From contig NC_049989.1 in assembly GCF_000003815.2 (NCBI RefSeq), positions 22,781,737 through 22,845,736 on the forward strand: 64,000 nucleotides of DNA. The letters run 5' to 3'. The notes under the pieces were generated by a model, which ran no database searches, was not told the origin of the DNA, and saw nothing but the letters and a program-made list of their open reading frames with translations. Source of the DNA: Branchiostoma floridae (lineage: Eukaryota; Chordata; Leptocardii; Amphioxiformes; Branchiostomatidae). The translations under genes were made by a program, and so were the position numbers. This document shows positions 3,276 to 64,000 of the stretch, one piece after another; the first letter of the stretch is position 1, and every line of letters starts with the position of its first letter.

Positions 3276-6200
3276 CTACACGAACCCATGGGGGGAGTTG
3301 TTGTCGTCAGACTTGCTCTCCAGTGAGAAGGGTGGGATCCTACAGTCAAACATGTGGCCATCCGACCGCTCCATTCTGAACGTGCCCCTGGAAAATAAGG
3401 AATAAATAGCAATTAAAATAAAAGTTTGAAGATTTCACACAGTCAAACATGTGGCCGTCTGAGCGCTCCATTCTGAATGTTCCCCTGGAAAAATACCCAT
3501 TCTAATTAAAACAAGAGTTTGAAGACCTTACACAATCAAATATGTGGCCAGCTCAGTGCTCCATTCTAAACATGCCCCTGGAGGAAAAAAACACCCACAG
3601 TAATCAATCACAGAGACTTAATATGTTCTAAATCAATAAAAACAATGAAAGAAATGAACAAATGTGGTCATTTAGGTGATGTTTTGATTTTTGTAACCAT
3701 TTCCTACCCGAATAAGCAGTTTCTACCTCATAAATATCAAAAGTCCTCAAACTAGTCAAAGCCATACCATGATGAACGAAGAAACAAACAAACAAACGCA
3801 CCACATGTGTCCGCTGGGAGCCTGCAGTGAGACGTGACTGCTGTACTGGAACGCTGGCTGCTCCTTCGACAGTACGGGCTCCCTCCCGATGACTCCGCGC
3901 CCGCGTACCGTCTCCAGTGTTCCTGACAGGCTGAAGATCCGCCAGTGCCGCTCACGTAGCTGGACTGTCTCCTCACCTAGGTTCTCTAGCCGGATGCAGT
4001 ACCGCCACTGGCATACAGGGGGCAGTCATGTTAGGTCACTGAAGTCTTATTTTACCAATGACACCACTGATCAAGTCTGGATGCAGCACTGCCATTATCA
4101 TACAGGGGGCAATCATGTCAGGTCACTCAAACTCTATTGTACTGATTACATCATTGATTACATTCCCCCCACACAGGTTCTCCAGCTGGATGCAGTACCG
4201 CCACGAGCATACAGGGGGCAATAAGCATTCATGCGTCTCACTAGGTCATTCAAACTTCATTGTGCTGATGACATCATCAACTAGAGTTCGGCGACCTCAT
4301 ACCTCCATTAAATTTTAGAGTTTTCGTAAATTTCATGCAATTGACTAACAAATTAACATAATTTATGCATCATTGACTAACGTACACATGTCACAATTAT
4401 AAAATTCTCATTATTAATCATAAAGTGGTTTTGCAATTTTTACATAAATTATGCAAATAAGTTCCTCATTACCATATTTTGTATCTGCTTATATTCCACC
4501 TATCATAATTAACATGTGTTACATGTATTGAGGTCTAGTTATTGAAAACAATGGAACTATACAATTTCCTCATTAATTATGCAAATTAAGTCATCATTTG
4601 CATAACATGTATATCATTATGAACATCTTTGCCTAAGCTACCTGCATGCCTAAAATGCAGGCAATCCGTCGTTCCTTTCTGCAGTTATCCTCTTTGGAGT
4701 GTCTTGACAAAAACACCCATGCAGTTCCACAATTAAATGTTAGGGGGCTGAAACTTGCCCCACTTGTTTATGACACTAAAAGCTATCTACCACCAAAATG
4801 TCAAGACCATAGCATGTCTGGAACAAGAGATACATTGAAAAAACTGCTATGATAGAATATTCTCATTAATTATGCAAATGTACTCCTGTTTTGCATAATT
4901 AGTATCTTATCTTGTACAACATTGTCTAAGGTACCTACATACCAAAAATCATGAAAATCCGTTGTTTCCTTCTTGAGTTATCATCTTCAGAAGTTTTTGA
5001 CAAAAATGCCCCTGCTATCCCAAAACTAGACGCTAGGAGGCCCAAACTTGTGTCATTTCTTCCTGAGCACAAGAGCTATCTAATACTCAAAATTTGTGAC
5101 CATAGCTTGTTCAGAACACCGAGATAGCAAAACCGGAAGTTGCGCTGCAGTACCATGGAAAGCCGCTAGGGAGCCCAAAATCTAATCATTTCCAGCTTTC
5201 ATCACAAGCTACCAACGCACCAAGTATGAAACCAATCCACCCAACCGTTCTTGAGTTATTTTGTTTACACACACACACACAGACAGACACACAGACAAAC
5301 GCGGGGTAAAATATAACCTCCATGACATTTCATGGAGGTAAATATAACCTCCATGACATTTCATGGAGGTAAATATGTCCCTTCCACAATAACACACACG
5401 GGTTCTCTAGCCAGATGCAGTACCACCACTGGCACACAGGGGGCAGTTATGTTTGGTTACTGAAGTCTGATTTTACCAATGACATCACTTATCAAGTTTG
5501 GATGCAGTACTGCCACAACCAGAGACATCATTATGCCCCCCCCCCCCCAGGGTTTCCTGACGGATGCAGTACTGCCACTATCATACAGGGGGCAGTCTTG
5601 TCAGGTCGCTCAAACTCAGTTTTACCGATGACGTCATTGAATCACTGATTACACCACTTGTCAATGAAAGAATATGCAAAAGCTTGGAACTGAACTAATA
5701 TTTCTACAAATCTGACCACACAGTGGTGTTTGGTACTTACCCAGTACACATTGGCATTGTGGGCCTCCTGCATGAAGAAAGGAAAACATGTCTTAGCACT
5801 TAGTACTGTGTGAGGATAAAGTAGTACAAAAGGAAGAAATGTAGGAATGTAGATTACACACACACACATGCACACAAACACACACACCACACACATACAC
5901 AATATACCACACACACACACATATATACAAATGTACCACACACACACACATANNNNNNNNNNNNNNNNNNNNNNNNNNNNNNNNNNNNNNNNNNNNNNNN
6001 NNNNNNNNNNNNNNNNNNNNNNNNNNNNNNNNNNNNNNNNNNNNNNNNNNNNNNNNNNNNNNNNNNNNNNNNNNNNNNNNNNNNNNNNNNNNNNNNNNNN
6101 NNNNNNNNNNNNNNNNNNNNNNNNNNNNNNNNNNNNNNNNNNNNNNNNNNNNNNNNNNNNNNNNNNNNNNNNNNNNNATCCTAGCTTACTTAAAGTTTAA

Positions 6201-9146
6201 CCTTCAGAAATCAAAAGTTTTCACCTACCTGGTATTGCATACAGAGATCTGCTGTTTTCTGTGTTCCCTAGAAATGTCACGCCTTCTGTCTGTGCTCTCT
6301 GGGGATAAAAACAACATCAGTGAATAGTTCCATCAGCTTTTTTTACTTGTTTGACCGGTCCGGAAAACACAGTCTTGAAAAATCAGATAACTTGTTGGTC
6401 CAATCAGAAAATTAACAGATGATACCCGCAGATGTTCACGTGTTTTGGAGCTTACCAGCCCAAGAAAAGTAGTGGAGCAGAGTAGAGGAGAGTTGATAGT
6501 CATTTTTACATGAAGACAGGAATTTAAAATGCCAGTAGGAGTCAGATACTACATGAAACAGATACCTTTACCATTGTTTTGAGTATTGTTCATTAACAAG
6601 TTTTCACAGATTTGTTTCTGCAATTTTTCCTTGACTCTCCTTTCTTAATCTTGCTCTCTAACACACAGGAGTAAGACTTAAAATATAGCGACAGCCCCTT
6701 GGGTGGTTTCTAAGAGACGTAGACATGAGACTTACAATATAGGGACAGTCCCTTGAGTCGATGAGAACCTGGTAATACGTGTGAGTCTTCCCCTTCACCT
6801 CCTTCCCAGCTGTTGTGTACAGACCTTCCTCAAGATTCCTACAAGATGTTTGGGACAGAAATAGGAGACTTTTAGTTAAGATTGTAAGGATGGAGTACAT
6901 GTACATGGTTTTTATTTAAAAAAAAATATAGGTGTAGTTCTTAAAGATAGACATGTTGGATGATTGACTTTCTAGACATTCTACAGCTATCAGATGACAG
7001 TCATAACTTAAGGCATGGTGAGTTTCTATAACCACCTAATAAATCACTGAGTGAGCAAAGTCAATCTCTATCTTACCTTTCTTCTGTTTTTGATAGCGAT
7101 TAGTCTGCGAAATCTGTCGTCAGAAGTTGATGTAGTTTTACTGAGTAATTTTTCTAGTTGTTCTGCATGCTTTTTCATGACCGGTCCTGAGGTGTTTATT
7201 ATGCCAGAATGAGCGGCTAGTTCCTATAACCACCTAATATACTACTGAGTGAGCAAAGTCAATCTCTTTCTTACCTTTCTTCCGTTTTTGAGGCGACGTC
7301 TCTGTCGTAGAGTCTGGCAACCCACGGGAATAGCACAATCCCACGGTAACCAAACACTTTGTGTAGGAACAGCTGGAAAATAAGAACAAACAAAGCTGTC
7401 AACAAATCCTTGGAGCAAACAACACAACAGAAAATTGTACCAAAAGATCAGAATTTCAATAATTGGACTTTTAAGGATTCTTGCCCGTGCAGTTGAGCAT
7501 AGTCTATACGCTGTGATCTGAACCTCCTAAGCTGTGATTTGTATCCATATATATGCTGTGATTAGGGCCTCTACACTATCTCAATCAGCGAAGGGGGCTT
7601 TACTGTTGTTTTGTAACAAAGGTAAAAAAATGTTGGATGCCCTCGGACCCCCCAACAATGCTTCACCACCCTAAAATGCCCCCTTTGCTGTGGAATTAAG
7701 TCTTGTTGAGAACCCTGTAAGAGTACGATGTTAAAGTGCCCCTGCCAGGCGACCTTACCTGACCTGTCTCGTACTTCCCCTGCTGTTTGGGCGTCTCCAG
7801 GATTCCCACTGACTGTAACCTACTGAGGAAACGGAAGGACACTATTATACACATAACTGATTATTCTCAAGCAGACGTCCAGCTTGTTTCTAGGGGAAGA
7901 ACAACATGGCATGAGCTTGAAGGTTCATCTGTGTTGGAAGTTACCATTGTAATGTGTGACCACTGCTAGAACTTGATATACAGTATAAGCCGTGTAATGT
8001 GCACACCTAGTCTCCAAGCAGACCCTACGGTACCTTAGAGATAGTATCAAAGCCGGCCAAAGGGAGTAAAACGGGTACCAGTGCCCGGCTATACTCCTTG
8101 GTCAGCTTTGATTCTATCTTATGTGGCACCGTAGGATCTGCTTGGAGAATATGCACACCCCATTAGTCAGTGTATTTCCTGCAATTATCCGGGTGGACAT
8201 CTTCCTGGCGTTTTTATCTCAGCGGTGAGCATCTTCCTCTCCATTATGGAAATATATGGGTCATTTTTCCGAAGTGTGACACATTCATTGGCTCGTCGAT
8301 GTTGGTCACCTATTGTTTAAGTTTGCAGGGATTTAATTTCGAGGTGGCAGGGTAAAGGACTTTTCGCTGTGGTTTTCAGTTCGCGGTAGCACCATGCACT
8401 CTCTTACTGCCATGAAAAAAGTGAAGCGGCCACTGCGAAAACTGCAAACATTAAACAACTGCGAAAGTTTCTGCATTAAACTACAAGTATAATTTATAGA
8501 TTACAGTATCCCAAAGAAGAAGAACCAGTACTTTTCTGCTGGAACAATTTCTAGACTGCCTCTAATCATCAAGTTGAATATTTTCATGTTTATACCGTAC
8601 TGTACAAATGCGCTACAAGAATACATTGGCCTTAGATGACCTAAAAGGGTGAAAAACATTTCATGCTCTATTTAGCGAAAGGTCATGAACTCGCGATCCA
8701 CGCAACTCTGCTCAGCCCACCAGTAAACATGCCCCCTCCCCCCTCACACGCACCTGACTTCCCAAGCGTTTTGGACAAAATCGTGACCACTTTTGCCGGT
8801 ATACAACTCAACAATCAGCTATGAATTTCCAAAAATCCCCAAATTAACAATTCCCACAAACAAAACGGAACAAGAAAGCGGAAAAGACAAACAGACATTG
8901 TGACGTTTGCATAAGTCTGGCATGGAAAAAACATATCCGTGCATGCGGTCACGTGTGTGACAGTCAGGTCCGAAAATACGGGTTCCCTTGCGGGCTAGCG
9001 GTTGGATTTCTGTCTCACCTTGAGTTCATCCTCCTCACCCATCCTGCCCGGCACACAAACGCCCCGCACAGCGTCGTTCTGGCGGAGTTCGCCACCAAAC
9101 CCGGCACCACGACTTTCAAAACACACAGTCTCCGGATGGCAGCCAT
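3276..9146 (-). CDS. POLDIP2: POLDIP2, polymerase delta-interacting protein 2 (one or more exons lost in gap)
   Basis: Exons on the minus strand: 9019-9146 (start codon at 9146), 7759-7819, 7275-7372, 6736-6838, 6229-6298, [missing], 5741-5767, 3802-4007 and 3276-3387 (stop TAG). All visible junctions have GT/AG and matching phases. The product shows an N-terminal basic, hydroxyl-rich leader that fits mitochondrial import. It then has a YccV-like region (FGYRGIVLFPW, RLYDRDVAS), the EVKGKTHTYYQVLID block, and a C-terminal ApaG fold (WRYCIRLENL, ERHWRIFSLSGTLETVRGRG, RIPPFSLES). These match my knowledge of vertebrate POLDIP2, a PCNA/Pol delta partner also found in mitochondria. About 75 residues between the exon ending YAIPG and the 27-nt exon EAHNANVYW are absent. 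The assembly gap 5953-6177 sits exactly there, so this is an assembly loss rather than a gene lesion. The 27-nt size of exon 5741-5767 is inferred from its acceptor; a longer version starting near 5815 is possible. Confidence 0.93.
3338..3600 (-). repeat. Tandem copies of the POLDIP2 last-exon acceptor junction
   Basis: Three tandem units of about 85-90 bp contain the 3' splice site of the last POLDIP2 exon plus the first part of that exon. The true junction is at 3387/3388. The next unit (about 3,430-3,490) still reads GTFRMERSDGHMFDC in frame after an intact AG. The third unit (about 3,525-3,580) is degenerate and has a stop after GMFRMEH. The intron part of each unit ('gtttgaagat...') is also shared. 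Confidence 0.85.
3985..4290 (-). repeat. Tandem copies of the POLDIP2 penultimate-exon acceptor junction (part 1)
   Basis: Three units of roughly 95 bp repeat 'tggatgcagtaccgccac...atacagggggcaatcatg', which is the reverse of the intron end plus the first codons (WRYCIRLEN) of exon 3802-4007. The true acceptor is at 4008-4009. Copies near 4,078 and 4,190 keep the pattern with substitutions. The array resumes at 5,398, so it is interrupted by about 1.1 kb of unrelated sequence. Confidence 0.85.
4300..5390. mobile_element. AT-rich element inserted within the POLDIP2 junction array
   Basis: This block separates two parts of one exon-junction array. It begins near 'acctccattaaat' (4,300) and ends near 'catggaggtaaatatg' (5,375), so the ends look inverted. 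Inside are two diverged ~280-bp units (around 4,555-4,850 and 4,860-5,130), each starting with 'ctcattaattatgcaaat'. There is also a short CA tract and a hairpin with the arms 'cctccatgacatttcatgga' that occurs twice in tandem at 5,316-5,370. No coding capacity is visible. The family is not identified. Confidence 0.6.
5398..5645 (-). repeat. Tandem copies of the POLDIP2 penultimate-exon acceptor junction (part 2)
   Basis: This continues the array at 3,985-4,290 with about three more units (around 5,400, 5,500 and 5,557). The first is close to the functional copy: its reverse complement has an intact AG followed by codons reading WWYCIWLEN instead of WRYCIRLEN. The intronic half with 'acacagggggcagt' and 'accaatgacatcact' is shared with part 1. 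Confidence 0.8.
5854..5952. repeat. (CA)n microsatellite at edge of assembly gap
   Basis: Dinucleotide CA repeats with interruptions run directly into the run of N. The repeat probably caused the assembly break. Confidence 0.9.
5953..6177. other. Assembly gap (225 N) hiding POLDIP2 exon(s)
   Basis: A run of N. By phase and by the known protein order, the POLDIP2 segment that follows YAIPG and precedes EAHNANVYW must lie here. The size of the gap may be an estimate. Confidence 0.95.
6345..6625. mobile_element. Old truncated copy of the ACCGGT-type hAT-like MITE
   Basis: This matches in order the interior of the two younger copies at 49,710-50,153 and 61,771-62,211. Shared blocks are 'accggtccggaaaa', 'ggtccaatcagaaaattaac', 'agtagagtagag'-like sequence, 'aaatgccagtaggagtc' and a 'gagtattgttcatt' block. 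The terminal inverted repeats are missing, so this is an older decayed copy within a POLDIP2 intron. Confidence 0.65.
7010..7295 (-). repeat. Duplicated donor junction of POLDIP2 exon 3
   Basis: The stretch at about 7,020-7,105 repeats about 7,210-7,290. Both contain 'tataaccacctaata', 'actgagtgagcaaagtcaatctct' split by small changes, and 'cttacctttctt' plus the exon end. The functional donor is at 7273-7274. The extra copy keeps the donor and about the last 15 exon bases. Confidence 0.8.
8011..8148. mobile_element. MITE with TCTCCAAGCAGA termini
   Basis: A 138-bp foldback sequence. The left end TCTCCAAGCAGA and right end TCTGCTTGGAGA are inverted, and the homology extends inward ('ctacggtacc' against 'ggcaccgtag'). 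A relative with the same interior lies at 44,077-44,240. It sits in POLDIP2 intron 1. Confidence 0.8.
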
Positions 9147-26100: not shown

Positions 26101-29100
26101 GCGATTTTTAAACGGGAATATGCCGGGAAAGGAAATATGCCGGGAAAGGAATATACACCACCTGACGTCCGCTGAACACCTGGAGGCGCACTGGTCCAAC
26201 GTTTCGCCGTAGAAGTTTCCCAGCTGGTTCCTGCCCTTGATGCAGGTGTTTCTGATGACGCCGTAGCCGTCAGGTACTGTGGTAAAAGGTAAAAGCTATC
26301 ATGACTACGAATGCCTGTGGGCAAGATTTTACTATGAAATCAAACATTGTTGAGCTATACAGTAGCTAGTGTGAACTATCAGACCCCTTTATGCCACTGA
26401 CAGCCGTAGAAGTCGTGAGAAAATTGCCAATAAGAGCACTGCCCAAAGTTCCTTTACAAAAATCTGATTTCCATTTAGTACGCGGGCCATTCTGTTTTGT
26501 TTCACAACTTTACTTTGAAAAGAAGCAAGACAAATTTTTGAATCTTGTAAAATCGAATATTTTGCTGTTCATGTCGTTGCTTAAGTGATTTAGCCTGTAG
26601 TGCGGGGGTCTGGCATCCAGGGTACCTACCGTCTGATTCCGAACTGCGTTCTCTGGTTTTCTTCTTCTCGTAGTAGTTGGTGATGCGGCGGTACTCCTCC
26701 GTGCAGCCGTCGAAGTCGTGCGGGGCCGACTCGCGGTTGTCCAGGGACAGGTAGCAGCTCCGGTACGACGGGATGTAGTCAAAGGAGGCACACCTGCGAA
26801 CGGAACACACCTGTCAATGGACGCACACCTGTCAACGTAACAGACCTGTCAAAGGACGCACACCTGCGAACGGAAAACACCTGTCGGCGGATCAGCACTC
26901 ATAAAAAACATTTGTCAACCATTTCTTTTGTTATTCTCTTTCAAAATTGAAAATTTTGGCACCTGCATTAAGGAAATAAAGACACCACTTTCCGCCCCAA
27001 GATCTATTTACCACTCAAGAATCACACCGTGACCAAAGCATTTCCGTAACTTTTTTTTGTTTTTTTCTTACTCAATGGTCACCACGTAACAAGGCCTGAA
27101 GGCCACATCAAGGTTACGGGTTACATGATTGGAACTGTAACAGCAACTCTTCGCCCTAGGTCAGAAACATCATGATTGAGACCAGCCCAATTGCTCACTA
27201 TGAGTGAGGACTAACTGACCCAATAGGCGAAGCAGGGGTTACGAGGGCTGCTCGGGAGATTCCCTACCCCTATTTTGACCGGAATGGTTTGATCCGCTCG
27301 GAAGGATGTTCGCACAAATAACGGTTTTAACGGGAGCCTACATCTATGACCTGTGCAGGCGCAGTTGGGTCTGCGAACACGCCTATTATCGTCTGGTTTA
27401 TGTCCAAGTAAAGAATCAGCTGTTGTCGTCATGGTTACGCACCTGACGTCATCGTTACACCGCCTGACGCAGTGCCGTAAGCTCTGTCTCCGGAACGCCC
27501 CCAGCTGGTTCCGGCTCCGGATGCACGCATTCCGGATCACCAAATATGCTCGCAGCCCTGGGAAGGTAAAGTACATTAACATAATTTATGCAAGCGTTCC
27601 GGATCACCAAATATGGTCGCAACCCTGGGAAGGTGGATACCTTAACATAATTTATGCAAGCGTTCCGGATCACCAAATATGCTCGCAGCCCTGGGAAGGT
27701 GAAGTACATTAACATAATTTATGCAAGCGTTCCGGATCACCAAATATGGTCGCAGCCCTGGGAAAATATAATACATTAACATAATTTATGCAAATTTATC
27801 AGATCACCCCAAAAGCACTCTAATCTTATATAGGTTTCTAATAATCAGAAAGCTTTCTTTTTCAAATGTAGGGAGCCCTGTCTTTGAAGCCCCGTACATA
27901 ATAATATAAAGTACGGGATGTGCCTAAACGTGCCGTTTATACCATCACTATTTCTTCTTAACATAGATCATCTGACGGAAAATATATGGATGATAAGAAT
28001 TGGTCTCTGAAAGAAATGCGAACGTTTGCATCTGTTGAAGTTTTGGTTCAGTTATTGTCTTCTATCTGTTTCCATGTTTTAGTTATTTATTTTCTGTTAT
28101 TAATGTTTATTTGAAATGCAATAAAAAGCTAATGCTCACATTTCTTCTCCCTCTCCGCGATGGGGTTGCCCAGCAGCTCGGCCACGTTGTTCTCGTCGGT
28201 CTCTCCCCTCGCCAGTATCCCAGACTGCACCTCGGGCGGAAGTGCCTCCTCCGGGACGGTCTCGGGACCGACCGGCCGCATCATCAGGCCCGCTGCCATC
28301 GGTGGGGCGTCTTGGGATGGAGAAGGAGAAGGAGAAGGAAAGGTAAAGTTCGATCATTTAAAGAACATAAACTTTATATATATGGGGGTTCTGTAAAGAT
28401 TTAGCTCACAAACGCTGTGTACAGTAATTAGACTTTCGGTGCAATGAATAGTACTGGTGTCCGGCTAAGCTTCCCGTCCTAAACGTCTGTAACCTGGAAT
28501 CCAGTCTCCTTGTGGACGGTCTACCGTAGTTAGTGTAGGCTCTCTTCGGGGCCAGTGCGGCTCTCAGCCGCCGGGGTAATAGTTCACACCCAGTAGAATT
28601 TTCTCGCGGTAGGACTTTGTCCAGTTAGTAGGCCACAAGGATGGCAAATTTAACCCCACCGTGCAAAACTCCTACCGGGTATGAAAGATTATCCCGGCGG
28701 CAGAAAGACTCTCCTGTCCCGAAGGTAGCCTGGCTAATCCACGGTAGACTGAATTCCAGGTTAAAACTTCTGTAGAATCAGAGACGTTCGACCATTCAAA
28801 TGGCAAAAGGTAAAAGGTAGTCCAATAGCCCTTATAAGCCCACAGGGGCAGTGGGTAGTTATCCACTAGGTAGCTGCTAGAGTTGCAATTCAATTAAAGT
28901 CTAAAGTCACTGTGCCTAGGGCGCGGCATTGGACGGTGGAACACAGCACTCTCCTTCACTGCCTTTTGCCTTCCCAACCAAAGTCAGGTACTCACTTACA
29001 CCTGGGCGGAAGTGAGGAAGGTCGTGTAAAATGCCTTTCCCAATATAGGTAGCATGACAGGATTCTTTTGTTTTGTTGAAATTCAAATAAAGTGAAAGAC

Positions 29101-29293
29101 CCACGTGCGTGCTGCCCGGACACGCGACAGGACCGGCAGCTCTTGCGGCAGTTGAGCAGCATGTACTCGGCGTTATCCACACACTCTCCCTCCCGGGCCC
29201 ACTGGGGACATCTCGCCTCGCTGTCTTCACACGGGCCGTCTGGAACAACAGGTCATACGGTCACACACAGGCAGACACACACACACACACAGG

Positions 29294-29324
<31 letters not shown>

Positions 29325-32300
29325 AAACAAACACAAACACACACACACAGTCACACACACGCAGACACACACACACACTCTCCCTCCCGAGCCCACTGGA
29401 GACATCTCGCCTCGCTGTCTTCACATGGGCCGTCTAAACTGACAACAGGAGATTCTGTCACACACACGCGCACACACATACACATACACGCACACACACG
29501 CGCACGTGCACACACACACACACACACACGGACACACACACACACATATATATATATAAACACACACACAAACACACACACAAACACGCACGGACATGCA
29601 CAGACACAGACACACACACACGCACACACACACGCGCGCGCGCGCGCGCGACCTAGTCCCTACCGCATGTATTACAGCTGTCCTTGCAGTGGTACAGCAT
29701 CCAGTTGACGTTGTTCTCGCACTCTCCCGCCTCCGCCCAGTCCTTACAGGACGCGTCCAGATCGTCACAGACCGGATCTGGGGTTTAGGTTGGGAGTTGT
29801 AACACTGGTTAGAATTATGGCTAGGTTTTTTAAATACTGATCGAAGCTACCAATCGCCATGATAACGCAACGTGCACAGCTTATTATAGCCACACAAAAA
29901 GACAACAGTTGTGAGGATCTTCCCTCTGATACCTCTCTTCACGTAAGTAAAATTAACTGGTAAAACAATATTAGTACATAACATTTGCAAGAAGAACTTC
30001 TGGTAGCTCAGTTTAGTGACGCTGAAGAAGAGTGATGGATGTCAGTCGAAACGTCCTGAAGTAATCGTCAAATTTTATCCAGATTGAAAACATAAACACT
30101 GATGAGATGCATCTTGATTTTGGCCATTTACTTCAAGAGATGATCGCATGTTAGTAAGTCGTTCCCTACCTTCTCTATTCTCCACTGCAAAATCTCCTGC
30201 ATTAATCTCCTAGTAGCTGATGGAAGGTAAAATACTAAGGAAGGCCGTCTGTAACATAAGCGGGGGACTAGGAAAACTTCAAAACGTATTTGTCGTCCAA
30301 GATGCGCTAGGAGATTTCTACACAAGGTCTGAGATACAGTACTCACCGTCGGCGCCAGGCGGCAAGTCCGAGTCGGAACGGTCTGAAATAGAACAGTAAA
30401 CGGTATGAATGTCTCTGCCGTAAACTATAGTGAATAAACCTTTTTTCACCCATGATTGAATGTAAAATCAAAAGACATAGCTGCTATAGTGGCTGGTCTG
30501 AGTCGGTACGCTCTGAGACGTAACCACAGAATGTTTTGTGCTGTGCGATTGAGAGATCAAGTGGTTGCAATGGACCACTCTTGTTACCCATCATTAACTT
30601 TGATATTGAAAAACATTGTTCTTAAGTGTATTACAGTAAGATTATCTTAAAACTTTCAGCCTCTTTGAACTCCACTTCTTCTTCAGGACTACTTAAGTTG
30701 TGTCTGAGTAAACCATGAACCCTAACTTTACAACTTTGATCTCCTTACCTTTGCAGTTCTAATGTGTGAATTTTGAACTTTTCACTTCGACCTCCGTAGC
30801 TTTGCACCAACGAGGGATAAACTTTGAACTCTAACTTTTCACTTTGACCTCCATACCTTTGTGTACTACAAGGAGTGAACTCTAAACTATAACTTTTCCA
30901 CTTTAACCTCTGTACCTTTGCAGTAGCCGTACATGAGCTGGACCTGCAGCACGTTCTTCTTGCTGAAGAAGGCTGCTGTTTTACCACAGTGGCATGAATC
31001 TGAAATTTGAACCTGTTGGACCTATGAACTTTGACTTCCACACCATTGCGTCATGCAAGGAGTAAACTTTGACCTCTGTACCTCTGCAGAAGTCGTACAT
31101 GAGCTTGACCTGCAGCACGTCCTTCTCGCTGAAGAAGGCTGCTGTATTACCTTACCACAGTGGCATGAATATGAACTTTGAACCAGTTAAACTCTATGAA
31201 CTCTGACCTCCATACCTACATGCGTAAGAGTGAACTTTGACCCCCGTACCTCTGCAGTAATCGTACATGAGCTGGACCTGCAGCACGTCCTTCTCGCTGA
31301 ATAGGACTGCTGTTTTACCATAGTGGCATGAATCTGAACTTTAAACCCGTTGAACGTGTGAACTTTGACCGCCACACCATTGCGTCATGCTATGAGTAAA
31401 CTTTGACCTCTGTACCTCTGCAGTAGTCGTACATGAGCTGGACCTGCAGCACGTCCTTCTCGCTGAGCTGCCTGTACGGCTGCTGGGTGACCTCCTGCAG
31501 CGCGCGCAGAGTCTCCAGCCCGGGCGAGCGCGGGAAGGCGTTGAACGGGTAGTGCATGATGGAGCCGTAGTCATACTCCACGCCTAGAGAGTCGATCTCA
31601 GCCTTTCCGTACTTGTCAAAGGCCGTGTCGAGACCTAAAATGGGGGAAAATGGAGTGAAAAGTTTACATTATACACCTGGTACCTGTAGTATTTAAAACT
31701 CTGTTGCAGCGTTAACGAGAAGTGCATGATGGAGCCGTAGTCGTACTCCACGCCTAGAGGACCCTAGAGAGTCGATCTCAGCCTTTCCGTACTTGTCAAC
31801 GGCCGTGTCGAGACCTAAAATGGGGGAAAATGGAGTGAAAAGTTTAGATTATACCTAGTACCTATAGATTGAGCAACTCTGTTGCAGCGTTAAACGGGTA
31901 CTCAGTGAGTCAATCTAAGCCTTTCCGTACTTGTCAAAGGCCGTGTCAAGACCTAAGAGAAAAAATATGGAGTGAAACAACTGAGTTGGAGCAATGAGCG
32001 GGGTAGTGCTTGATGGTCGTGTTCCACACCAAGCGAGTCGACTTCAGCCTTCTAGTGCTTGATATGTCAAGAGCACGACTTGGCCAATATTTAATGGTCA
32101 CCTTGGTGGATAACCGGGGTAAGGTGGGTGCTATGAAGTGAGCGAACCTGGTTCGGTTTTGTCCCAGCTGCAGAGCCACTCAACCCAGTTGTCCCGATCT
32201 ATTCATTGGGCCACTGCGCTTTTGCTCACAATTACTCAAACAAAGAAATAAGCAAACAAATATATCTCGTGAGCGAACCTGGTTCTATGTTGTCCCAGAG

Positions 32301-35300
32301 CACCTCCACCCAGTTGTCCCTGTCGAGCCCTGACTGCTCGTGCCAGAACCCGATGGCGTGCCCGATCTTGTGAATCACAAACAAACAAACAAACAAACAA
32401 AGATAACCTGGTTCTATGTTGTCCCAGAGCACCTCCACCCAGTTGTCCCTGTCCGGACGGGACTGCTCGTGCCAGAACCCGATGGCGTGGCCGATCTCGT
32501 GGATCATGACGTGCGTGTACTCGCAGCCGTTGCCAACAGACAGCCGCTGCTTCCCGCCGATCCGGCCCACCGGGCACTGGCAGCTGGAAGGTGAAAGGTC
32601 ACAATTAGAGGAATGCACAGAGGGTGCATTTTCAACAGGTCCTGGTAAGAAAAGTGTTTTCTTATCTTTTTACAAGCCTCAAAGTTTTTCTTGGGAAATG
32701 TTGGCATTTTGGAGCTGCAAATTACAGGTAAGGGTTTTGGCTATTTTGTGTTGTTAGAATGATAGGATTTTGGCAGTTTTGGCCCTGTTTGACAAATCCA
32801 GCACACTCTAGAACAAGTGCAGTTTGGGAGTGTTTATTACTTGTCTAGAGAGGTCAAAGACCACCAGGGTTTGGTTCAGTGGTAGCGACTTTTTCAACGT
32901 TAGGAATATATATGTTTAAAATCACTAGGCACTGTTTGTTTATTTTTACGCACTATTTGTTCCTGTAGAAGTCCAGGTAGTCCCTCTTGTTTGTATATAT
33001 TGTTTGTTTGCTTGTTTGTTTGTTTGTTAGTTACGCACTATTTGTTCCTGTAGAAGTCGAGGTAGTCCTTCTCCGTTGTCCTCTTGACGAAGCGGATACA
33101 TGTCCTCTCCTCCCACTGCCGTATGGCGGTCTTAATGGCGGTCAGGGCGGCTGGAATGTTCTCTGGAAAAGAACAAGCAGAAATTGTCAAAATTTAGTGC
33201 TTTTCTGTCTTTCAAAGAATCTAACAGATGGGGGGGATCGTTACCATGCATATGGGGAACATGGAAATACGTGAAGTGGACTTATTCATCTCTTACGACG
33301 GTCCATTTCTCAAATGGTGGGGTATATGTGAAGGTTACACATGTAGGGAATTGAGTTTTGCTGTCAAATGAATCGCTCCGATAGGATGAAAGTTGTGTTT
33401 ACCTTTAGACAATATGTTCACCATATTTCCTTAGCGACGACTTTGACTTTGAAAGTTAGTTCTTCTAACTTTCATCCTGTCAGAGAGTCTCTTGCCAGCA
33501 GAAATATGGGGAAATGTTGACAGAGTCCGAGTTCTTAACCCTTTATTATCTAGTCTTTGCCGTGTGTGTTTTATTTGGTCAAATCAGGCACTTATCAGAA
33601 CAATTTGCTTACTTTTTCAGAGAGTTTGAAAAGTCTTTGAAGTGATATAGTCACAAAATGTTAGTGAACTACGAAACGAAGCGTTAGTAAAAACTGCAAT
33701 CTCTGCATTACGATTTTATCCTTTTTCCTTATGGGCGGAGATATCGCATGCGCTGTCCAACATACTCACGCAGACTGCAGTCTATGGTATATGGAATGAT
33801 TCCTTTGGGCCACCGCATGGACAGCCCGGCAATGGTGGGTGGAACGGCGGCCCTGCCGGTGCGGGTGGGCGGACGCCGACAGGGACCTGTTCCTGGAATT
33901 TGAGGTCAGTGACCTTGTGACGCCCGTTCCGGGAATCTCAGGTTAGAGATCGAGGGGTTTGAGGGGGACAGGAACCTGTTCCGGGAATCTCAGGTCAATG
34001 GCCGAGGGTCGTGAAAGGACAGGAACCTATTCCGGGAACTTAATGTCAATGACCGAGGGGCGTGAGGGGACAAGAATCTGCCGGGAATCTCAGGTCAGTC
34101 ACCCAGGGTCGCGAGAGGACAGGAACCTGTTCCGGGAATCTCAGGTCAATGACCGAGGAGCGTATGGAGGACAGGAACTTGTTCCGGGAATCTCAGGTCA
34201 ATGACCGAGGGACGTATAGGGAGGGAACCTGTTACGGGAATCTCAGGTCAATGACCGAGGGGTATTAGGGGACAGGAACCTGTTCCGGGAATCTCAGGTC
34301 AATGACCGAGGGGTGTGTGGGGCAGGAACCTGTTCCGGGAATCTCAGGTGAATGACCGAGGGAGTGAGGGGACAGGCAGCTGTTCCGGGAATCTCAGGTT
34401 AGGGGTCGTGAGTGGTCAAGAATAAGTTCCGGGAATCTCAGGTCAATGATCGAGGGCGTGAGAGGATAGGAGCCTGTTCCGGGAATCTCAGGTCAATGAC
34501 CGAGGGACGTGAAGGAAATGAATCGGGAATTTCAAGTTAACGACAGAGAAGGGAATCTCAGTTGAAGTTTAGTGATTCTATGATGACTTCATTGCGCAGG
34601 TCCTGACATCTGATTTCAGTGACATTGTTACCCTACATGAACCTGAATTCTATAGTCAGTGGCTTAATGGCATGGGAATCTGACCGCTGATGGCCCGACG
34701 GAACAGGAACCTGTTACGGGAATCTGCGGGTCGCAGTTTGGAATCAGGGGTTGGAACGGGCGTCATTAAAAGTGCTGCAAATTTTACCTGAGTGTGCCAT
34801 TTTGATCGTGCAGAGGCTTAAGTCAGCCATTTACATCCAGGCTGTTAGTTTTCCTAAAAAGCGGGGTGGTGCGTTTATCTTTGCTCTTGTGGTGTTTTTA
34901 TGTTTATTATTTATGTCTAAAAACCTCCAAGTATGCTCGTAAGGTGTTAGGCAGACGCGAAAAGCACAGGCCTTACAGCGATGCAAGAAACAAACGGGTA
35001 AATGGGCAGGCATTGTGCGATCTGTTGTGCTTTTGATGATAGCGCGGCCACAAGTGCAAGTCTTTTATTAGGCCACAGAAACTCAGTTTTAGGGATGACA
35101 TCACGTCCATAACATTTACCCCCCACATTTATAAGTGTACCAGTGTCCAACATGCCTGTCGGATACTGGTTGCCCCTCGGGGATCTGCTTGGAGATTACC
35201 TTTTTAGCTGAATTCATTTCAGTCTCCGTAGCTAGTTCATATAACGTCCTTGGTTAGTTCATTAGTCCATCGGAAACAAAACGGATGACACGGCTATCGA

Positions 35301-44489: not shown

Positions 44490-44732
44490 CTGGTAGGAGT
44501 TAACTGTTAAGCGTTATGGCCTTGGAGTTAACTGTTAAGCGTTATGGCCTTGGAGTTAACTGTTAAGCGTTATGGCCTTGGAGTTAACTGTTAAGCGTTA
44601 TGGCCTTGGAGTTAACTGTTAAGCGTTATGGCCTTGGAGTTAACTGTTAAGCGTTATGGCCTAGGACTCTAGGAGTTAACTGTTAAGCGTTATGGCCTTG
44701 GAGTTAACTGTTAAGCGTTATGGCCTAGGAAT
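44490..44732 (+). repeat. 28-bp minisatellite, about 8 units
   Basis: Nearly perfect units of 'ttggagttaactgttaagcg' + 'ttatggcc', with one unit extended by 'taggactc'. No spacers and no coding frame. The low divergence implies recent expansion or homogenisation. Confidence 0.95.
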
Positions 44733-45437
44733 GAACTGACCGGCCGGCGGAAAGCAGGATATATTGCAAAAGACTGACTGAAATCCCATGGCAACTTATT
44801 TGTCTCTATCTGGCCAAAAACGTTTTGTCATCCAGTTGACACGTCTGCTCGGAGACTACTTTGCTTCTGGAAATGGGAACTTGAGAACCGCCAGTTGCTG
44901 GTTTGCTTTTCCACGTCTGGTTAGAGACTAGGTATCTCCTGTAGGCTCATTTGGCTGTTGGATAAACAGAAGGAAATTGGCGCAGTGGGATAATTTTCTA
45001 GTAGAGTTCTCCGGCCATATTACAGTTATGTAACCTTGGTTAAAAAAGCATCTATCAAAGTCATCAAAATATCTATCCCTCTTGGTTAATTCTTAAGGTT
45101 TTTTAACTATGTTTTGTTTCCTTTTTTGTGTTTCTCTGTCTCTCTCTTTTACTGGTCGCTTACATGTGTCAACTCGCAGAAGCGGAAAGAGCAAACAAAC
45201 TTAAAAAACAGGTGCACTGCTAGAAAGACATGCTCTCTCTTTGTTTAACACTCGCTAAACACCGAGCTACATCTGTTATCAGATTCTGAGACTGAAGGTG
45301 GATTCTCACTGCGCTTAGGGCACTGGTGCGGCACTGCGGGGTTCGTTCACTGCGGCACTGTTTTATTATTTTCGCGATTTTTGATAATTTAGATATTGCG
45401 TGATAGGCAAAAATATAGCTTAGAAGACAACAAAACA

Positions 45438-51970: not shown

Positions 51971-51971
51971 C

Positions 51972-52618: not shown

Positions 52619-55448
52619 CTATGCAGGGACCCCGAACCTGCTGTAGTTACTGGGTGGGGAGTCGTCCTCGTCCAGCCAGCACTTGTACTTGGCACAGATC
52701 ACACAGGTGATCCCAATCAGCACGGCCAGCAGCAGCGAGGGCCAGAACATCACGTGGAAAATCACCATGTTGTCATAGTCCTTCCTCAGCAATACCTCCT
52801 GGGAAAGGGGCACAAAAGGGTCATAGTGAAACATGAGTACCAATTTTTGACATAAAAACATCACATGGAAAATCACCACGTTGTCATGGTCCTTCCTCAA
52901 CAAAACCTCCTGGGAAAGATGCAGAAAAGGATCAGAGTAAAACATGAGAACCAATTTTCTACATGAAAACATCACGTGGAAAATCACCATGTTGTCATAG
53001 TCCTTCCTCAACAAAACCTCCTGGGAGAGATGCAGAAAAGGTTCATAGTGAAACATGAGAACCAATTTTCTACATTAAAACATCACGTGGAAAATCACCA
53101 TGTTGTCATAGTCCTTCCTCAACAATACCTCCTGAAAGGGATGCAGAAAAGGTCCATAGTGAAACATGAGAACCAATTTTCTACATAAAAAGATCACATG
53201 GAAAATCACCATGTTGCCATAGTCCTTCCTCAGCAATACCTCCTGGGAAAGATGTAGAAAAGGTTCATAGTAAAACATGAGAACCAATTTTCTACATTAA
53301 AACATCACGTGGAAAATCACCATGTTGTCATAGTCCTTCCTCAACAAAACCTCCTGGGAGAGATGCAGAAAAGGTTCATAGTGAAACATGAGAACCAATT
53401 TTCTACATTAAAACATCACATGGAAAATCACCATGTTGTCATAGTCCTTCCTCAGCAATACCTCAGGGGAGAGAGGCACAAAAGGTAAAATTTATATATT
53501 AAAACATGAGAACCAATTTTCTACATTAAAACATCACAATGTCATGGAAGATCACCATGTTGTCATAGTCCTTCCTCAACAATACCTCCTGGGAGAGATG
53601 AAAAAAAGGTTCATAGTGAAACATGAGAACCAATTTTCTACATTAAAACATCACGTGGAAAATCACCATGTTGTCATAGTCCTTCCTCAACAATACCTCC
53701 TGGGAGAGATGCAGAAAAGGTTCATAGTGAAACATGAGAACCAATTTTCTACATGAAAACATCACGTGGAAAATCACCATATTGCCATAGTCCTTCCTCA
53801 GAAGAACGTCCTGTGAAAGGGGCAGAAAAGGTTCATAGTGAAACATGAGACCAATTTTCTACATTAAAACATGTCGTGGAAAATCACCATGTTGTCATAG
53901 TCCTTCTTCAAGAGAACCTCCTAGGAAAGGGACACAAAAGGGTCATAGTACAACAGGCAGGGCTCCAAATTCATTTTGGGGATTAGGTGCACTGGGATGA
54001 CGGCTTCTACTTCTAAGTGTCTCTTAAAAATAGTCTACTTAGAGTTATGTATGACTCTTGATATTTTTTTTGAAAATGAGTATCTAAGCTTCAGTAAGGT
54101 ACACATTTTCAGAAAAAGGTATTAATTAGTACATGTAGTGAGGTGAGGTGAGTATGCTAATTTGAATCCTAATTAGAAATCTGATCTGCTGATGTCCTTT
54201 TCCCAACCAGTCAGCTGAATACCCTGGATGTAAACAAAAATGGCAATCATTATGGAAACTGACCAACATTAATCTGGTGTCATCTATCATATAAAGTGCC
54301 AAGGACAGAACATCAGAGGCCTCTGTAAAGAAACCTACATTGGAGAGACCGAGAGATCGCTTAAGACCAGGTTCCTTGAGCACAAACGCAAGAGTTCTAA
54401 AACCTCAAAAATTTACAGAACGTACGTTCTCCTTGCCGGGGTTGTAGAAGCAGCTGTAAGTCTGCCCCACTTGTCCGTAGTTGTTCTCAAACCAGCTCAC
54501 AGAGTCCACGTTCAACTCCCAGCTTCGGCTACAGCTGTGGTAGGAGCACTGGGGGAATAAACGAACAAACAAACATCATCAAGTGTTACCCAGGAAAAAA
54601 CTCACCAAGTACCAACCAACCAAGCAAAGCACTCATCACCATCATCATCCTGTCGTACAGGATACAAGGATGAACATGGTTCTCTCTTCCTCCATCCATC
54701 CCTATCCGCCATAGTCTTGAGCAGATCTTCCCCTGAACTGCAAGTGTCTTTGCAAAATTAGTGTAGATAGGTCAGCAAAGCACTGCTCACCTCCAATTTC
54801 CAGCTTTGAATTCTTTTCTGTCCCACTCATTGTTTCATTTGCTTTTTGTCGTTAAATTTTAAGCATATGAAAATACGTTTTCATCACTTTTATGTGGGAT
54901 GTATTTTTTGTGGATGGCCCTGTCGCTTTTGTTGTTTTCCAACAAGCGAATTTCCGTCCCAGGATGGAAGGACAGGTCCAGTTCCAACCAGACAGCTGTG
55001 AAAAGGTCCCGGTGGAAAACTGGTTTGGACCGGATGTCTGTGAAAAGGTCCCGGTTGGGAATTTGGTGCAACCGGATGGCTGAACATGGTGAAAAGTTTG
55101 GTTTTTGAAAATTGATTTTTGATGAGTCAAACATCTAAAAGGAAACAAATTAAATCTGCCTGCAATTCATTCATCTTTCATTCAGTCTATCATTTTCTTC
55201 ATTCTTTAATTCATTCATTCATGCAGGCTGAGCCATTTTACAAAAAAAAATCAAATGAAAATTCACAATGATGACATGTTTGTTACCATGCTCCACTGGT
55301 CCAGCTCCCCCTCATCATTATGGAGCATTCCTGTTGCCGTGGCGTTCTGTCTGTCCTGGTACGTCACCATGACAACCAGGCACGGCATCTGGGTGTAGCA
55401 GTTCCGTCCGCAGCTACAGTCCACGTTGTCCTCTACAATTGATTATTC

Positions 55449-55485
<37 letters not shown>

Positions 55486-58400
55486 GTCAATGATTAGGCA
55501 CAGAATTGATTATTGTATTTAATTTTGTATTGATCGGTATTGGCAAGCATTATCTAGTTGGTGTCACTGGCCGACCATGGAGACCTGTACAGGGAAGTGG
55601 AGAGATGTGATTGTTACAGGACTACAGTAAACTCTGTATCCAAGGTAATGTAATTAATTGTGGTAAAAGATATAAAGTACAACGGTAGTCTGTCCATACA
55701 GTATCACTAAATTTTTCTTTCAAAATCCGAGCTGAGTTGAGCGTCCTTTCTTGCCCAAAAGGGAAATTAACGATTCTTCAATTTGTTTGAAACTTTTAAT
55801 CTTTATTCATAAGAAATTCAAATCCACAAGTGTCAGCAATCATGTTGCCACAACATAGACAATGCAGACCACGGTACAGGTTGGCTCGTGCTATAGTCAC
55901 CATTGACCACGGTACAAGTGGTACGTTCTATATATGGTATTTACCATAGTCAGAACTGACCATGGTACAGGTGGTAGGTTTGAAGGCGTGCCCGTAGATG
56001 GTACTTACCATAGTCAGCACTGACCACGGTACAGGTGGTATGTTCTATGGTACTTACCATAGTCAGCACTGACCACGGTACAGGAGGTATGTTCTATGGT
56101 ACTCACCATTGTCAGAACTGTCCATGGTACATGTGATATGTTCTATGGTACTTACCATAGTTAGCACTGACCACGGTACAGGTGGTATGTTCTATGGTAC
56201 TTACCATAGTCAGCACTGACCGCGTACAGGTGGTGGATTCTATGGTACTTACCATAGTCAGAACTGACCACGGTACAGGTGGTATGTTTTATGGTACTTA
56301 CCATAGTCAGCACTGACCACAGTACATGTGATGGATTCTATGGTACTTACCATAGTCAGAACTGACCATGGTACATGTGGTCCTATGGTACTTACCATAG
56401 TCAGCACTGACCACGGTACAGGTGGTATGTTCTATGGTACTTACCATAGTCAGCACTGACCACAGTACATGTGATGGATTCTATGGTACTTACCAGCGTT
56501 CCCGCCAGGCATACGTCTTTACGTCTTTGGACGCATTTTTTTCTGGAAAGACGCACTCGGCTCAGCTGAATGCGTCCATAAAAAAATATGAAAGAAAGGC
56601 TGACCTGTACCACCAGTGTACAAAATGTATCTGGAATCTTTTTAAAAATCTGTCTTTATAGGAAGGAATCCTACCTTTACAATTTATACTTCAAATTCTT
56701 CACTTTCCGGTCATCCTAGTAGTCTGGGCATGGGGCGGAGCGCGGCACGCTTTACAACTAGCGGACCCATGTGCGACACACCCAGCCACGCGCCAGTCTG
56801 AGCTGTCCGTTGCGCAATGTAATTTTTTGTAGTCCGTGAAATACGTCTGACAGTCAGCATTCTTTAACACTCGAAGAGATCTTATGCAGATTTTATATTC
56901 TGATTAATAACATGATACTTACTTGTCCTCAGTTTCACGTATTTGTTAAAGATTTGTGGGTAATACTAGTATTGAACAAGCAAACTGCTCTGCGCGAGTG
57001 CTGCACATCTCAACAAAAGTTCTCACACTGTGGGCAGTTGATTCGCAGTCGGTATCTTTGACAACAGGCCGCTAGCGCCAAGCAGTCTAGATTGGCCACC
57101 AGGTCCAAATCCAATCATCTTAATAACCAATCAGCGTTTGATAAATGTAATGTTGCACTCTGTTATTGGTCACCGGAAAAAAACAAAAGTTACCGAGTAT
57201 TAGCGCACGTGACGTTGGTAGCCGCCCGTGTCGTCTGGCAACTTGAGTTTCTTCCCTAGCTGCTAACAAAAAACGGTGCACGGTAAATAAGTGAAGAATC
57301 CAAAACTATACACTTTATTTCTTATTTACAAAATTTCTTTTATTTCAAAAAGACAAAATTTGCGGCAGAAAAGGGGCCGCAATATTGTTGTCAAGCGTCG
57401 ATCGAGTCGGCTGTGCACTCCGTGGCACATGTAACAGCACGCCCCCCTCCCCAGACGGACCGTCGATCGCAGCGCCGTCTTTCTGGCTACTGCTTCAAGG
57501 TTACACCGGCAATGATCACTGCCAAAGAGGCAGCAGATCGTCCTCCTCGAGTAATGTATAACGTTCTTGATCTATTTAAAAAGAAATCCAGCCAAAGATT
57601 TCACGCCGAAAACGGGGTTACCTGAGGTCGCAGGAACAAACGCACGCTCGTGGAAAATGACGGCAAGGCCTTGTAAAACCCCACCGATTCAAAAAATTTG
57701 ACTAAAATCATCGGGCAAAATAGAAAAAAGACACAAAGTGTGATGGCGCCATTATTTTATCGTCTCGGAAAAATTTTTGATGCGGAAGGGCGCAACATCG
57801 ATCGCACGAGGTAACGTTAGACATTTTTTTTTTCAATGACGGAAAATAATTAGCAGAATTTTTTTCACGGGCTGACGGACAGGCAAGGCCGCTAGAGCCC
57901 TGTTTCGAAGCATCAAAAATCCAAAATTTTCATATAGATATGTCTGGACAAATAATACCCGGGTCAGATCACGGAAGGCTGATTCCCTGTGCTTACAGTT
58001 GTTTTTAATATAACGTATTTTGATGAAGAGGGTGGTCGTCGATAACTGAAAATGGGAGTAAAAGAGGCAACCGACATCCAATCTCAAGTGCATGATTATC
58101 CTCTCAAATTGCAGGAAATTGTGTTCTAGAGGGTTTGAAAATCCAAATTTTCCCGGGGGAGCATGCCCCCGGACCCCCCTAGAATGCGAGCGCCTGCGGC
58201 GCTCGTCTCGCGCCTCCGGCGCTCATTACGCCCCTCCCAAATATTTGGACGCATACTTTCAAAAACCTGGTGGGAACGCTGGTACTTACCATAGTCAGCA
58301 ATGACCACATTACAGGTGGTGTGTTCTGTGGTACTTACCATAGTCTGAAGCACTGACCACGGTACAGGTGGTATCATCATTTCTATGGTACTTACCATAG

Positions 58401-58576
58401 TTAGCACTGACCACGGTACAGGAGGTAGGCATAAAGGCTTGCCCGTAGATGGCGGGTTTGACAATGAGGATGCCCAGCATGATGATGAGAGCTATGGCCA
58501 GGATCATCCCAGAACACAGCATCTTCCTGCAGACCGAGTGTTTCCGCTCGGGGGTCATGTTCTCACAACAACCCAT
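52619..58576 (-). CDS. KCNMB-like: BK (calcium-activated potassium) channel beta-subunit-like protein A
   Basis: Four exons (58396-58576, 55287-55432, 54426-54548, 52619-52798) join in frame to 210 codons including the stop, i.e. 209 aa, close to the ~210 aa of vertebrate KCNMB4. The protein has two membrane segments (MILAIALIIMLGILIV near 24-39; FWPSLLLAVLIGITCVICA near 169-187). Between them lies an extracellular loop with conserved cysteines (CSCGRNC, CLVVMVTY, CSYHSCSR, TYSCFYNPG). LLRKDYDNMVIFHVMFWP before the second segment is typical of the family. A sequon (NAT) lies in the loop. The C-terminal tail is acidic (WLDEDDSPP). Family role: tunes Ca2+ and voltage gating of the Slo1 pore. 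Borders of exons 1 and 4 are embedded in repeat arrays; a hAT-like element sits in intron 1 and another right after the stop. Confidence 0.9.
52740..53930 (-). repeat. Eleven ~110-bp units over the acceptor of the channel gene's last exon
   Basis: The functional junction (52798/52799) is the first of about eleven units. 'ttgtcatagtccttcctca' or close variants recur at about 52,773, 52,884, 52,992, 53,104, 53,216, 53,328, 53,438, 53,560, 53,668, 53,782 and 53,893. On the minus strand nearly all units keep a pyrimidine tract, an AG, and codons EVLLRKDYDNMVIFHVM. The unit then changes to intron with 'gaaaattggttctcatgttt'. Confidence 0.95.
53931..54278. other. Intron sequence with half a hAT-like terminus
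   Basis: 'caggcagggctccaaattca' at 53,955 resembles one end of the element at 61,315-61,663, but no partner end is visible. No exon is seen. Confidence 0.45.
54279..54418 (+). pseudogene. Penelope-like GIY-YIG endonuclease fragment
   Basis: Read on the plus strand from 54,279, the frame gives VIYHIKCQG, then CKETYIGETERS and LKTRFLEHKRKSS. The YIGET...R..L..R..EH pattern is the core of the GIY-YIG endonuclease found at the C-terminus of Penelope-like retroelements. Only about 45 codons remain. It lies a few bases from the donor of exon 54426-54548 on the opposite strand. Confidence 0.75.
54795..54985. repeat. Dispersed repeat, copy 2
   Basis: Counterpart of 3,030-3,200: 'ctgtcccactcattgt', 'gaaaatacg', 'ttttgtggatgg', 'ccaacaagcgaatttccgtc', 'aggacagg'. 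Here it is followed by two short direct repeats 'ctgtgaaaaggtcccggt' at 54,997 and 55,040. Confidence 0.6.
55885..58400 (-). repeat. ~50-bp array over the donor of channel gene exon 1, split by a transposon
   Basis: About twelve units at 55,885-56,493 and two more at 58,282-58,390 lead to the functional donor (58394-58395). Each unit has 'ggtacttaccatagtcagca' and 'ctgaccacggtacaggtggt'. On the minus strand each reads the exon end (CTVVSA-x-Y) followed by GTAAGTACCAT. The copy near 55,980 also keeps more exon ('aaggcgtgcccgtagatgg'). Nearly all potential donors are intact. Confidence 0.95.
56494..58281. mobile_element. hAT-like DNA transposon, 1,788 bp, perfect 8-bp target duplication
   Basis: Termini CAGCGTTCCCGCCAGG and (inverted) CAGCGTTCCCACCAGG. 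Direct repeats GTACTTAC flank it exactly (56,486-56,493; 58,282-58,289). The target is itself the splice-donor string of the array. The interior has no transposase frame that I recognise; a 70-codon open frame at 57,413 is unassigned. Internal 'gggggagcatgcccccggac' and 'cgctagagccctg' suggest nested or related pieces. Confidence 0.93.
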
Positions 58577-58672
58577 GCTGAACAAGCAACTAGATAGGAT
58601 ACGAACAAATTGTGTTGGTAGTTAAAATCGGACCCTGCCATAGTCCCTGACCCTCAAGCATGAGGATGGGAC

Positions 58673-58717
58673 AAGGTAAGGTAAGGTAAGGTAAGGTAAG
58701 GTAAGGTAAGGTAAGTT
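58673..58717 (+). repeat. (GGTAA)n microsatellite
   Basis: Eight or nine perfect GGTAA units just upstream of the start codon of channel gene A. On the plus strand each repeat reads as a splice-donor-like GGTAAG, but the neighbouring gene is on the other strand. Confidence 0.95.
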
Positions 58718-59013
58718 AAAATCATACTACTGATTGCTAAACTTTCTTCCATGAATACTGATGCCTCCTTCAGCAGAAAAAGTGTTGGAAGAATTCAGTA
58801 AAGCATCATCATCAATGTACTAGTCTAGGATTAAAGAACAGGCCATACAAGTTTCAACATTCTGGCAGCGTGTACGCGTGTATTATTATAGGTTTAGTTT
58901 GCAGTTGTTAACTACCTACACAACTTTATAAATAAGTATAGTCTGTATAGTCGTGCTAATTGTATAAATCGCAAGTTCTCCCTTTGTTCTCCACCTGTTA
59001 AGAAAACTTGTTT

Positions 59014-59327
59014 ATGGTGTACTGTGGCCAAATATATGGCGCGCAATTATGGAACTCTGTCAGTGCGGGTGTACTGTCCAAGTGCCGGGTCGCAATTACA
59101 ATATTTGTTTCCGGATCATTATGAATTTGCCACAACGGTGTAGCGCCAGTACAATGTTTGTGTACCATTCGACTGACAGTTTTGAAACAAGGCGAAGGAG
59201 GGTCTGTTATTCCTTTTTACAAAGATTACTATCCTCCAATAATACTATTGTCAATAACTTGCTGCATTCAGACATGTTCTACAGAAATACCTATTTCAGC
59301 CACTGTTATGGCTTATTATACAGGTAG
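59014..59327 (+). pseudogene. Frameshifted LINE reverse-transcriptase tail
   Basis: One frame reads YCGQIYGAQLWNSVSAG and LSKCRVAIT. After a frame change near 59,115 it continues NLPQRCSASTMFVYH, then ETRRRRVCYSFLQRLL and NTIVNNLLHSD. This is the conserved region following the RT domain in non-LTR elements. It lies between the two divergent channel genes. Confidence 0.7.
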
Positions 59328-59330
59328 AGG

Positions 59331-63197: not shown

Positions 63198-63294
<97 letters not shown>

Positions 63295-63930: not shown

Positions 63931-64000
63931 GTGAGTACTGTGTTACCTGGTCACACCTTACATTGTCACACAGGTGAGTACTGTCTTACCTGAGGTATCG

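Follow-up and report, generated by a model that had tools for sequence, protein, structure and literature searches.

Tandem arrays that lie over exon borders in a 64,000-nucleotide stretch of Branchiostoma floridae DNA (NC_049989.1, positions 22,781,737 to 22,845,736; hereafter the window, meaning the whole stretch analysed) are probably amphioxus 'mirages', that is, tandem duplications that crossed splice junctions by chance, with the exon-proximal site remaining in service. The loci in astacin, POLDIP2, BK-beta, ALDH and CCT genes are further cases of the mirages already known from amphioxus.

Gene models in the window

Four genes were annotated by reading and translation, which placed 51 junctions, and all counts given for the window cover these four genes:

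9.1-3.3 kb, minus strand: POLDIP2 homologue, with two spliced stretches matching PDB chain 6z9c (E 3.5e-45 and 3.3e-60)
9.6-12.6 kb, plus strand: zinc-type dehydrogenase, PF00107 below cut-off
33.9-25.6 kb, minus strand: astacin protease with ShK and PAN-like exons, PF01400
58.6-52.6 kb, minus strand: BK-channel beta subunit, PF03185 (E 1.8e-25)

A run of N separates the two POLDIP2-matching stretches, and further exons are expected there. Splicing the exon-proximal copies of the astacin gene yielded an astacin domain with a profile match to PF01400 (E 2.1e-56); its second ShK exon is supported by a ShK domain match, and PF00024 (PAN) scored below cut-off in the exon starting at 26793. The window also carries a 1354-aa open frame at 20965-25029, probably the ORF of a LINE-type retrotransposon, in which parts resembling endonuclease, reverse transcriptase and RNase H were recognised by eye. 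Next to this LINE-like ORF, two inverted 918-nt arms at 17800-20839, 93% complementary and 1.2 kb apart, contain 162-bp tandem repeats and look like a repeat-rich mobile element. A 28-bp tandem array of 8.4 copies with 91% matches lies outside the annotated genes at 44496-44738.

Tandem arrays at exon borders

Because BLAST self-hits missed several of the duplications already listed, we wrote a lag detector, an ungapped comparison with simple repeats masked that seeks a second copy of a junction within 1.5 kb; on shuffled sequence, about 0.1% of 1000 null positions reached a score of 16. By this measure 15 of the 51 junctions (29%; 16/51 at a coarser step) lie in a local duplication: 9/23 in the astacin gene, 4/14 in POLDIP2, 2/6 in BK-beta and 0/8 in the dehydrogenase. 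The preliminary description had placed the junctions of every multi-exon gene except the dehydrogenase in arrays, which holds for the three genes and, with 15 of 51 junctions duplicated, is overstated for the junctions themselves. Every array that it listed exists, eight being reported by Tandem Repeats Finder (TRF) and the others found by reading and the lag detector; those without a TRF call (3985-4290 with 5398-5645, 7010-7295, 31590-31965, 32140-32475 and 32941-33075) have few, diverged copies. Three duplicated junctions (acceptors 29239 and 30382 and donor 6736) were absent from its list. The arrays and associated features are as follows:

3338..3582, minus strand: acceptor of the POLDIP2-like last exon (exon start 3387), 3 copies of 93-97 bp, AG retained in 2/2 extra copies; TRF 3342-3582
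3980..4290, minus strand: acceptor array of POLDIP2-like exon 4007-3802, proximal half, from sequence reading
4291..5392, no strand assigned: high-copy repeat element within the POLDIP2 acceptor array, limits by eye
5398..5645, minus strand: acceptor array of POLDIP2-like exon 4007-3802, distal half, beyond the repeat element
6660..6760, minus strand: POLDIP2-like donor 6736, diverged two-copy duplication at lag 54, the copy lacking GT
7021..7291, minus strand: donor of POLDIP2-like exon 7372-7275, 2 copies at lag 198, 92%
26778..26885, minus strand: acceptor 26793 of the PAN-like exon of the astacin gene, 35/17-bp array; TRF
27521..27793, minus strand: acceptor of astacin-gene exon 27557-27443, 4 copies of 67 bp, AG present in 3/3 extra copies; TRF
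29185..29469, minus strand: acceptor 29239 of the second ShK exon, 2 copies at lag 194
30382: acceptor of the astacin gene, duplication scoring at the detection threshold
30750..31466, minus strand: donor of astacin exon 31634-31416, 5 copies of about 166 bp; TRF 30900-31466
31538..31977, minus strand: acceptor of astacin exon 31634-31416, 3 copies
32140..32475, minus strand: donor 32408 of the HEIGH-bearing astacin exon, 2 copies by the detector and a third by eye
32941..33075, minus strand: astacin donor 33039, 2 copies
33878..34516, minus strand: astacin acceptor 33892, about 12-13 copies of 50 bp; TRF 33926-34516
52746..53955, minus strand: acceptor of the BK-beta-like last exon (exon start 52798), 11 copies of 111 bp; TRF 52746-53949
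55998..56495, minus strand: BK-beta-like exon-end/donor unit, distal block, 10 copies of 49 bp about 1.9 kb into the intron; TRF
58280..58427, minus strand: BK-beta-like exon-end/donor unit at the donor itself (exon end 58396), 3 copies; TRF

Across these arrays the unit measures about 35-200 bp and occurs in 2-13 copies. The two halves of the POLDIP2 acceptor array share 90% identity (5401-5515 against 3980-4094); the stretch 4400-5300 between them has 5318 candidate matches, of which 40, counting the stretch itself, were scored and show 94-100% identity. Likewise, the BK-beta donor array consists of two blocks about 1.8 kb apart, and the intervening stretch, 56500-58240, is possibly a transposon insertion. 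In the 111-bp BK-beta array, 9 of the 10 extra copies retain AG, and the final three units, the working one among them, are open in frame.

Astacin exon 31634-31416 carries arrays over its acceptor and its donor alike, which the preliminary description included in the density that it called seemingly extreme; since an exon of ALDH gene L053 is likewise duplicated at both borders (acceptor 4972 and donor 5157), the feature is not unique to the window. Two other ALDH loci have repeats over a donor. At L050:4460-4969, in a gene unrelated to those of the window, repetition of the exon end over its donor forms an evident mirage; tblastn finds this exon end in four places, three of which encode one 25-residue stretch and the fourth that stretch with a different first residue. 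The ALDH donor at 5629 of L046 (gene strand) is repeated about 12 times in units of 51 bp, and in 10 of the 11 extra copies the donor matches the true one in strength.

Relation to known mirages and other duplications

PMC3087553 describes mirages in globin genes and cites Adh3, and PMC3902484 describes a PGBD5 mirage and cites Adh and troponin C; both report tandem copies of exon borders that include splice signals, with regular splicing by the authors' account. The mirages of Adh3, the globins BflGb6 and BflGb9, PGBD5 and troponin C share with the present arrays a unit that joins an exon end, its splice site and intron sequence, a location at either border of existing exons, and splice signals in many units, if not all. 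Their units, 10-72 bp in Adh3 and about 150-160 bp in the globins according to these papers, bracket most of those found here. The link to amphioxus mirages that the preliminary description had drawn is therefore borne out by the anatomy of the arrays as these two papers present it: we found boundary-spanning repeats at 15 of 51 window junctions, and a splice signal in 59 of 80 extra copies over 28 arrays of the window and other genes. The present loci go beyond the published ones in lying in astacin, POLDIP2, BK-beta, ALDH and CCT genes, and in that the frequency of affected junctions was counted and found at chance level outside the window. Our literature search, mostly without subscription papers, found no genome-wide count of amphioxus mirages.

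Two other forms of duplication resemble the arrays in part. The Rogers model, as outlined in PMC3087553, has introns arise when exon sequence that contains AGGT is duplicated in tandem. It shares with the arrays tandem copies that bear splice signals within a gene, but the copies described here sit in existing introns. Exon duplication, as in mutually exclusive exons, also places exon sequence in tandem, but here the unit comprises one border and part of an exon, never a complete exon bearing both sites: in 28/28 arrays measured, the exonic part of the match falls short of the full exon, contrary to exon duplication.

The exon-proximal copy and the state of the extra copies

Of the 15 mirage junctions, nine were joined with the exon-proximal copy (33039, 32408, 31634, 7275, 6736, 4007, 3387, 58396 and 52798); the other six (33892, 31416, 30382, 29239, 27557 and 26793) lie outside this joining. 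The joined proteins are open, and their alignments with PDB chains of tolloid-like 1, POLDIP2 and BK beta-4 contain no insert of array size. Protein homology runs unbroken over the nine joined junctions, where regular mRNA may be made from the exon-proximal copy.

The extra copies, all but one of 80 in 28 arrays, lie on the intron side. The splice dinucleotide is retained in 59 of the 80, so that the earlier statement that most units keep AG or GT stands overall; it fails at the 50-bp array at 33926-34516, where AG is found in just 1/12 extra copies. Scored with a consensus matrix, decoys were on a par with true sites: acceptors scored 4.59 for decoys (n=32) and 4.30 for true sites (n=16), donors 3.56 for decoys (n=27) and 3.20 for true sites (n=12). 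At least one decoy equalled or exceeded the true site in 17/28 arrays (10/15 in the window and 7/13 elsewhere), and 7 of the 191 junctions sampled outside the window (see below) have a decoy scoring no lower than the true site. Among 38 decoys with an unambiguous frame, nine would lengthen the exon by a number of bases divisible by three, two of these nine without a stop; a further 21 decoys, ambiguous in frame, fall outside the 38.

Across the 80 copies of the 28 arrays, identity was 0.856 at the splice dinucleotide and 0.861 in the adjoining exon core. Mismatches were spread evenly over codon positions (40/288, 47/304 and 54/308; chi-square P 0.47), and coding selection on the extra copies, looked for in this way, was not seen. 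By both measures, the extra copies show no constraint on splice site or reading frame. In the outer 22 bases of the comparison, identity was 0.729 on the exon side (-30 to -9) and 0.666 on the intron side (+9 to +30).

Junction overlap compared with chance

Because the arrays extend far into introns, per-position coverage in the window was dropped as the sole test. The chance expectation came from rotating the entire duplication mask inside each locus, and a version of the test used TRF arrays of period 20 or more. An independent sample was assembled from family matches in the genome assembly (513,431,437 bases, 431 contigs). For the chaperonins (CCT/HSP60), 54 of 60 matches were used, five in long single frames and one outside the fetched stretches having been dropped. 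The ALDH part consisted of 44 exon cores from nine regions around 14 matches, with 13 of 133 ALDH candidates scored, and six tblastn hits to repeated exon copies in the L047, L050 and L053 arrays were removed by hand from the exon list. Adaptin contributed eight exons of one gene among 35 family matches. Altogether, 191 of 212 borders were counted in 21 loci and 19 genes, all conserved genes of three families, the remaining 21 borders having a best site at or below 0 or standing first or last. Homology and the consensus matrix served to call the splice sites, over about 299 kb of loci that partly overlap one another and the window, in one assembly of one species.

Within the window, intron interiors were duplicated at 491 of 1600 positions (31%), not below the 29% of junctions, and rotation gave 13.8 duplicated junctions where 16/51 were observed (P 0.28). 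Counted as clusters, 16/28 touched a junction against 10.0 under rotation at the base threshold (P 0.008), 12/22 against 7.4 at the middle score threshold (P 0.010) and 7/20 against 5.3 at the highest (P 0.22). The comparison of repeat-finder arrays with randomised placement, made with homology-called junctions, came out divided: 8/12 TRF arrays held a junction in the window against 4.4 expected (P 0.012), and there was no excess in the 19 other genes, where 2/30 did so against 4.9. Exon interiors in the window showed no depletion (0.235 against 0.220 rotated).

Among the 191 sampled junctions, 13 were duplicated (CI 3.7-11.4%; chaperonin 4/100, ALDH 8/77, adaptin 1/14), four of them scoring just 16-18; nine (4.7%) scored 22 or more. 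Rotation gave 14.9, so that no junction excess was seen in the 19 other genes (ratio 0.87, Poisson CI 0.46-1.49), and the recurrent process targeted to exon borders that the preliminary description had proposed found no support in them. Clusters in these genes likewise showed no excess at junctions (13/105 against 13.2). The excess of arrays at borders over chance, also part of the original claim, therefore stands for the window clusters at the two lower thresholds and for neither the window junctions (15/51) nor the clusters of the 19 genes. Exon interiors in the 19-gene sample were depleted of duplications (0.024 against 0.072 rotated, P 0.002): duplicated positions numbered 2/556 in chaperonin exons and 28/488 in ALDH exons, against 435/4320 and 469/3342 in the respective intron interiors. 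In the window and the sample genes alike, duplication coverage did not fall with distance from the junction and was flat or rising into the intron.

Pooling the window with the other genes, 29/133 clusters touched a junction against 23.0 at the base threshold (P 0.074), 20/62 against 14.5 at the middle threshold (P 0.036) and 10/48 against 9.8 at the highest. In view of these pooled counts and the window cluster excess, arrays may have a modest preference for junctions in some genes; and since the independent sample comprises three conserved families, border targeting may occur in gene classes beyond them.

Discussion

The arrays are most readily explained as chance products of a general process. 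Local tandem duplications would arise all over the non-coding DNA of this genome, presumably by slippage or unequal exchange, and those within exons would mostly be purged by selection. A duplication crossing a junction would be tolerated, since the exon-attached copy keeps supplying a functional splice site and the extras land in the intron. There they could grow, shrink, diverge or accept insertions, and they show no sign of an independent function; in cells, the exon-proximal site would be the only one used. We count the high-copy element that splits the POLDIP2 acceptor array in favour of this account, and the cluster excess of the window, together with the lack of depletion in its exons, against it.

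That excess could point to a duplication process directed at exon borders, such as one guided by the structure or chromatin of splice junctions. It appears in clusters at two thresholds (16/28 against 10.0, 12/22 against 7.4), in TRF arrays (8/12 against 4.4) and, pooled, in 29/133 against 23.0 (P 0.074) and 20/62 against 14.5 (P 0.036). Such targeting is nonetheless improbable: the window was picked for its striking look, its junctions (16/51 against 13.8, P 0.28) and highest-threshold clusters (7/20 against 5.3, P 0.22) argue against it, the 19 other genes are at chance (13/105 against 13.2; ratio 0.87, CI 0.46-1.49), and the distance profiles are flat. The window excess might instead be partly a matter of ascertainment, which would complement chance duplication: because one copy is under protein constraint, the exon half of a junction-crossing copy would stay recognisable for longer. 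The higher identity on the exon side (0.729 against 0.666) and the disappearance of the excess among the highest-scoring duplications fit this idea, but the two sides differ little in identity, at the middle threshold the excess still holds, and high-identity arrays such as 52746-53955 and 27521-27793 are detectable without such help; we regard it as a possible, somewhat doubtful contribution.

Two further readings concern the arrays themselves. If distal copies were alternative splice sites or splicing regulators, one might point to the GT or AG in 59/80 extra copies, to decoy scores that match those of true sites, and to the open frame of the three last 111-bp units, including the working one. 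Such a function is unlikely, as splice dinucleotides and codon positions are conserved no better than their neighbours, and only 9/38 frame-clear decoys add a multiple of three bases, 2 of the 9 being stop-free. An assembly artefact, with repeats collapsed or expanded, is far less credible still. One amphioxus mirage appears to have been aberrantly assembled in the genome draft, according to a supplementary legend of PMC3087553, and the window has runs of N; yet many substitutions distinguish the copies, a high-copy element interrupts one array, and the published mirages were verified by their authors, through RT-PCR for the globins and re-sequencing for PGBD5, as stated in the two papers.

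The impression of border-aimed repeats gives way to a count: in an independent gene sample, junctions overlap duplications at chance level and exons are spared, and a rate of duplicated junctions is now available (13/191). Extrapolated with caution, roughly 1/15 junctions (13/191) may lie beside copies of themselves and 1/27 (7/191) beside a decoy of equal or greater strength, with the conserved protein coming from the exon-proximal copy only; the choice among them would then be made by position relative to the exon and not by the sequence of the site. We hold this broader proposition tentatively, as one that may prove correct. Since the sites in many copies equal the real ones in strength, transcripts of these animals offer a test of spliceosomal choice among near-identical sites. 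Were the proposition true, arrays at acceptors would oppose the first-AG scanning rule, and this genome would amount to a large natural experiment on exon definition.
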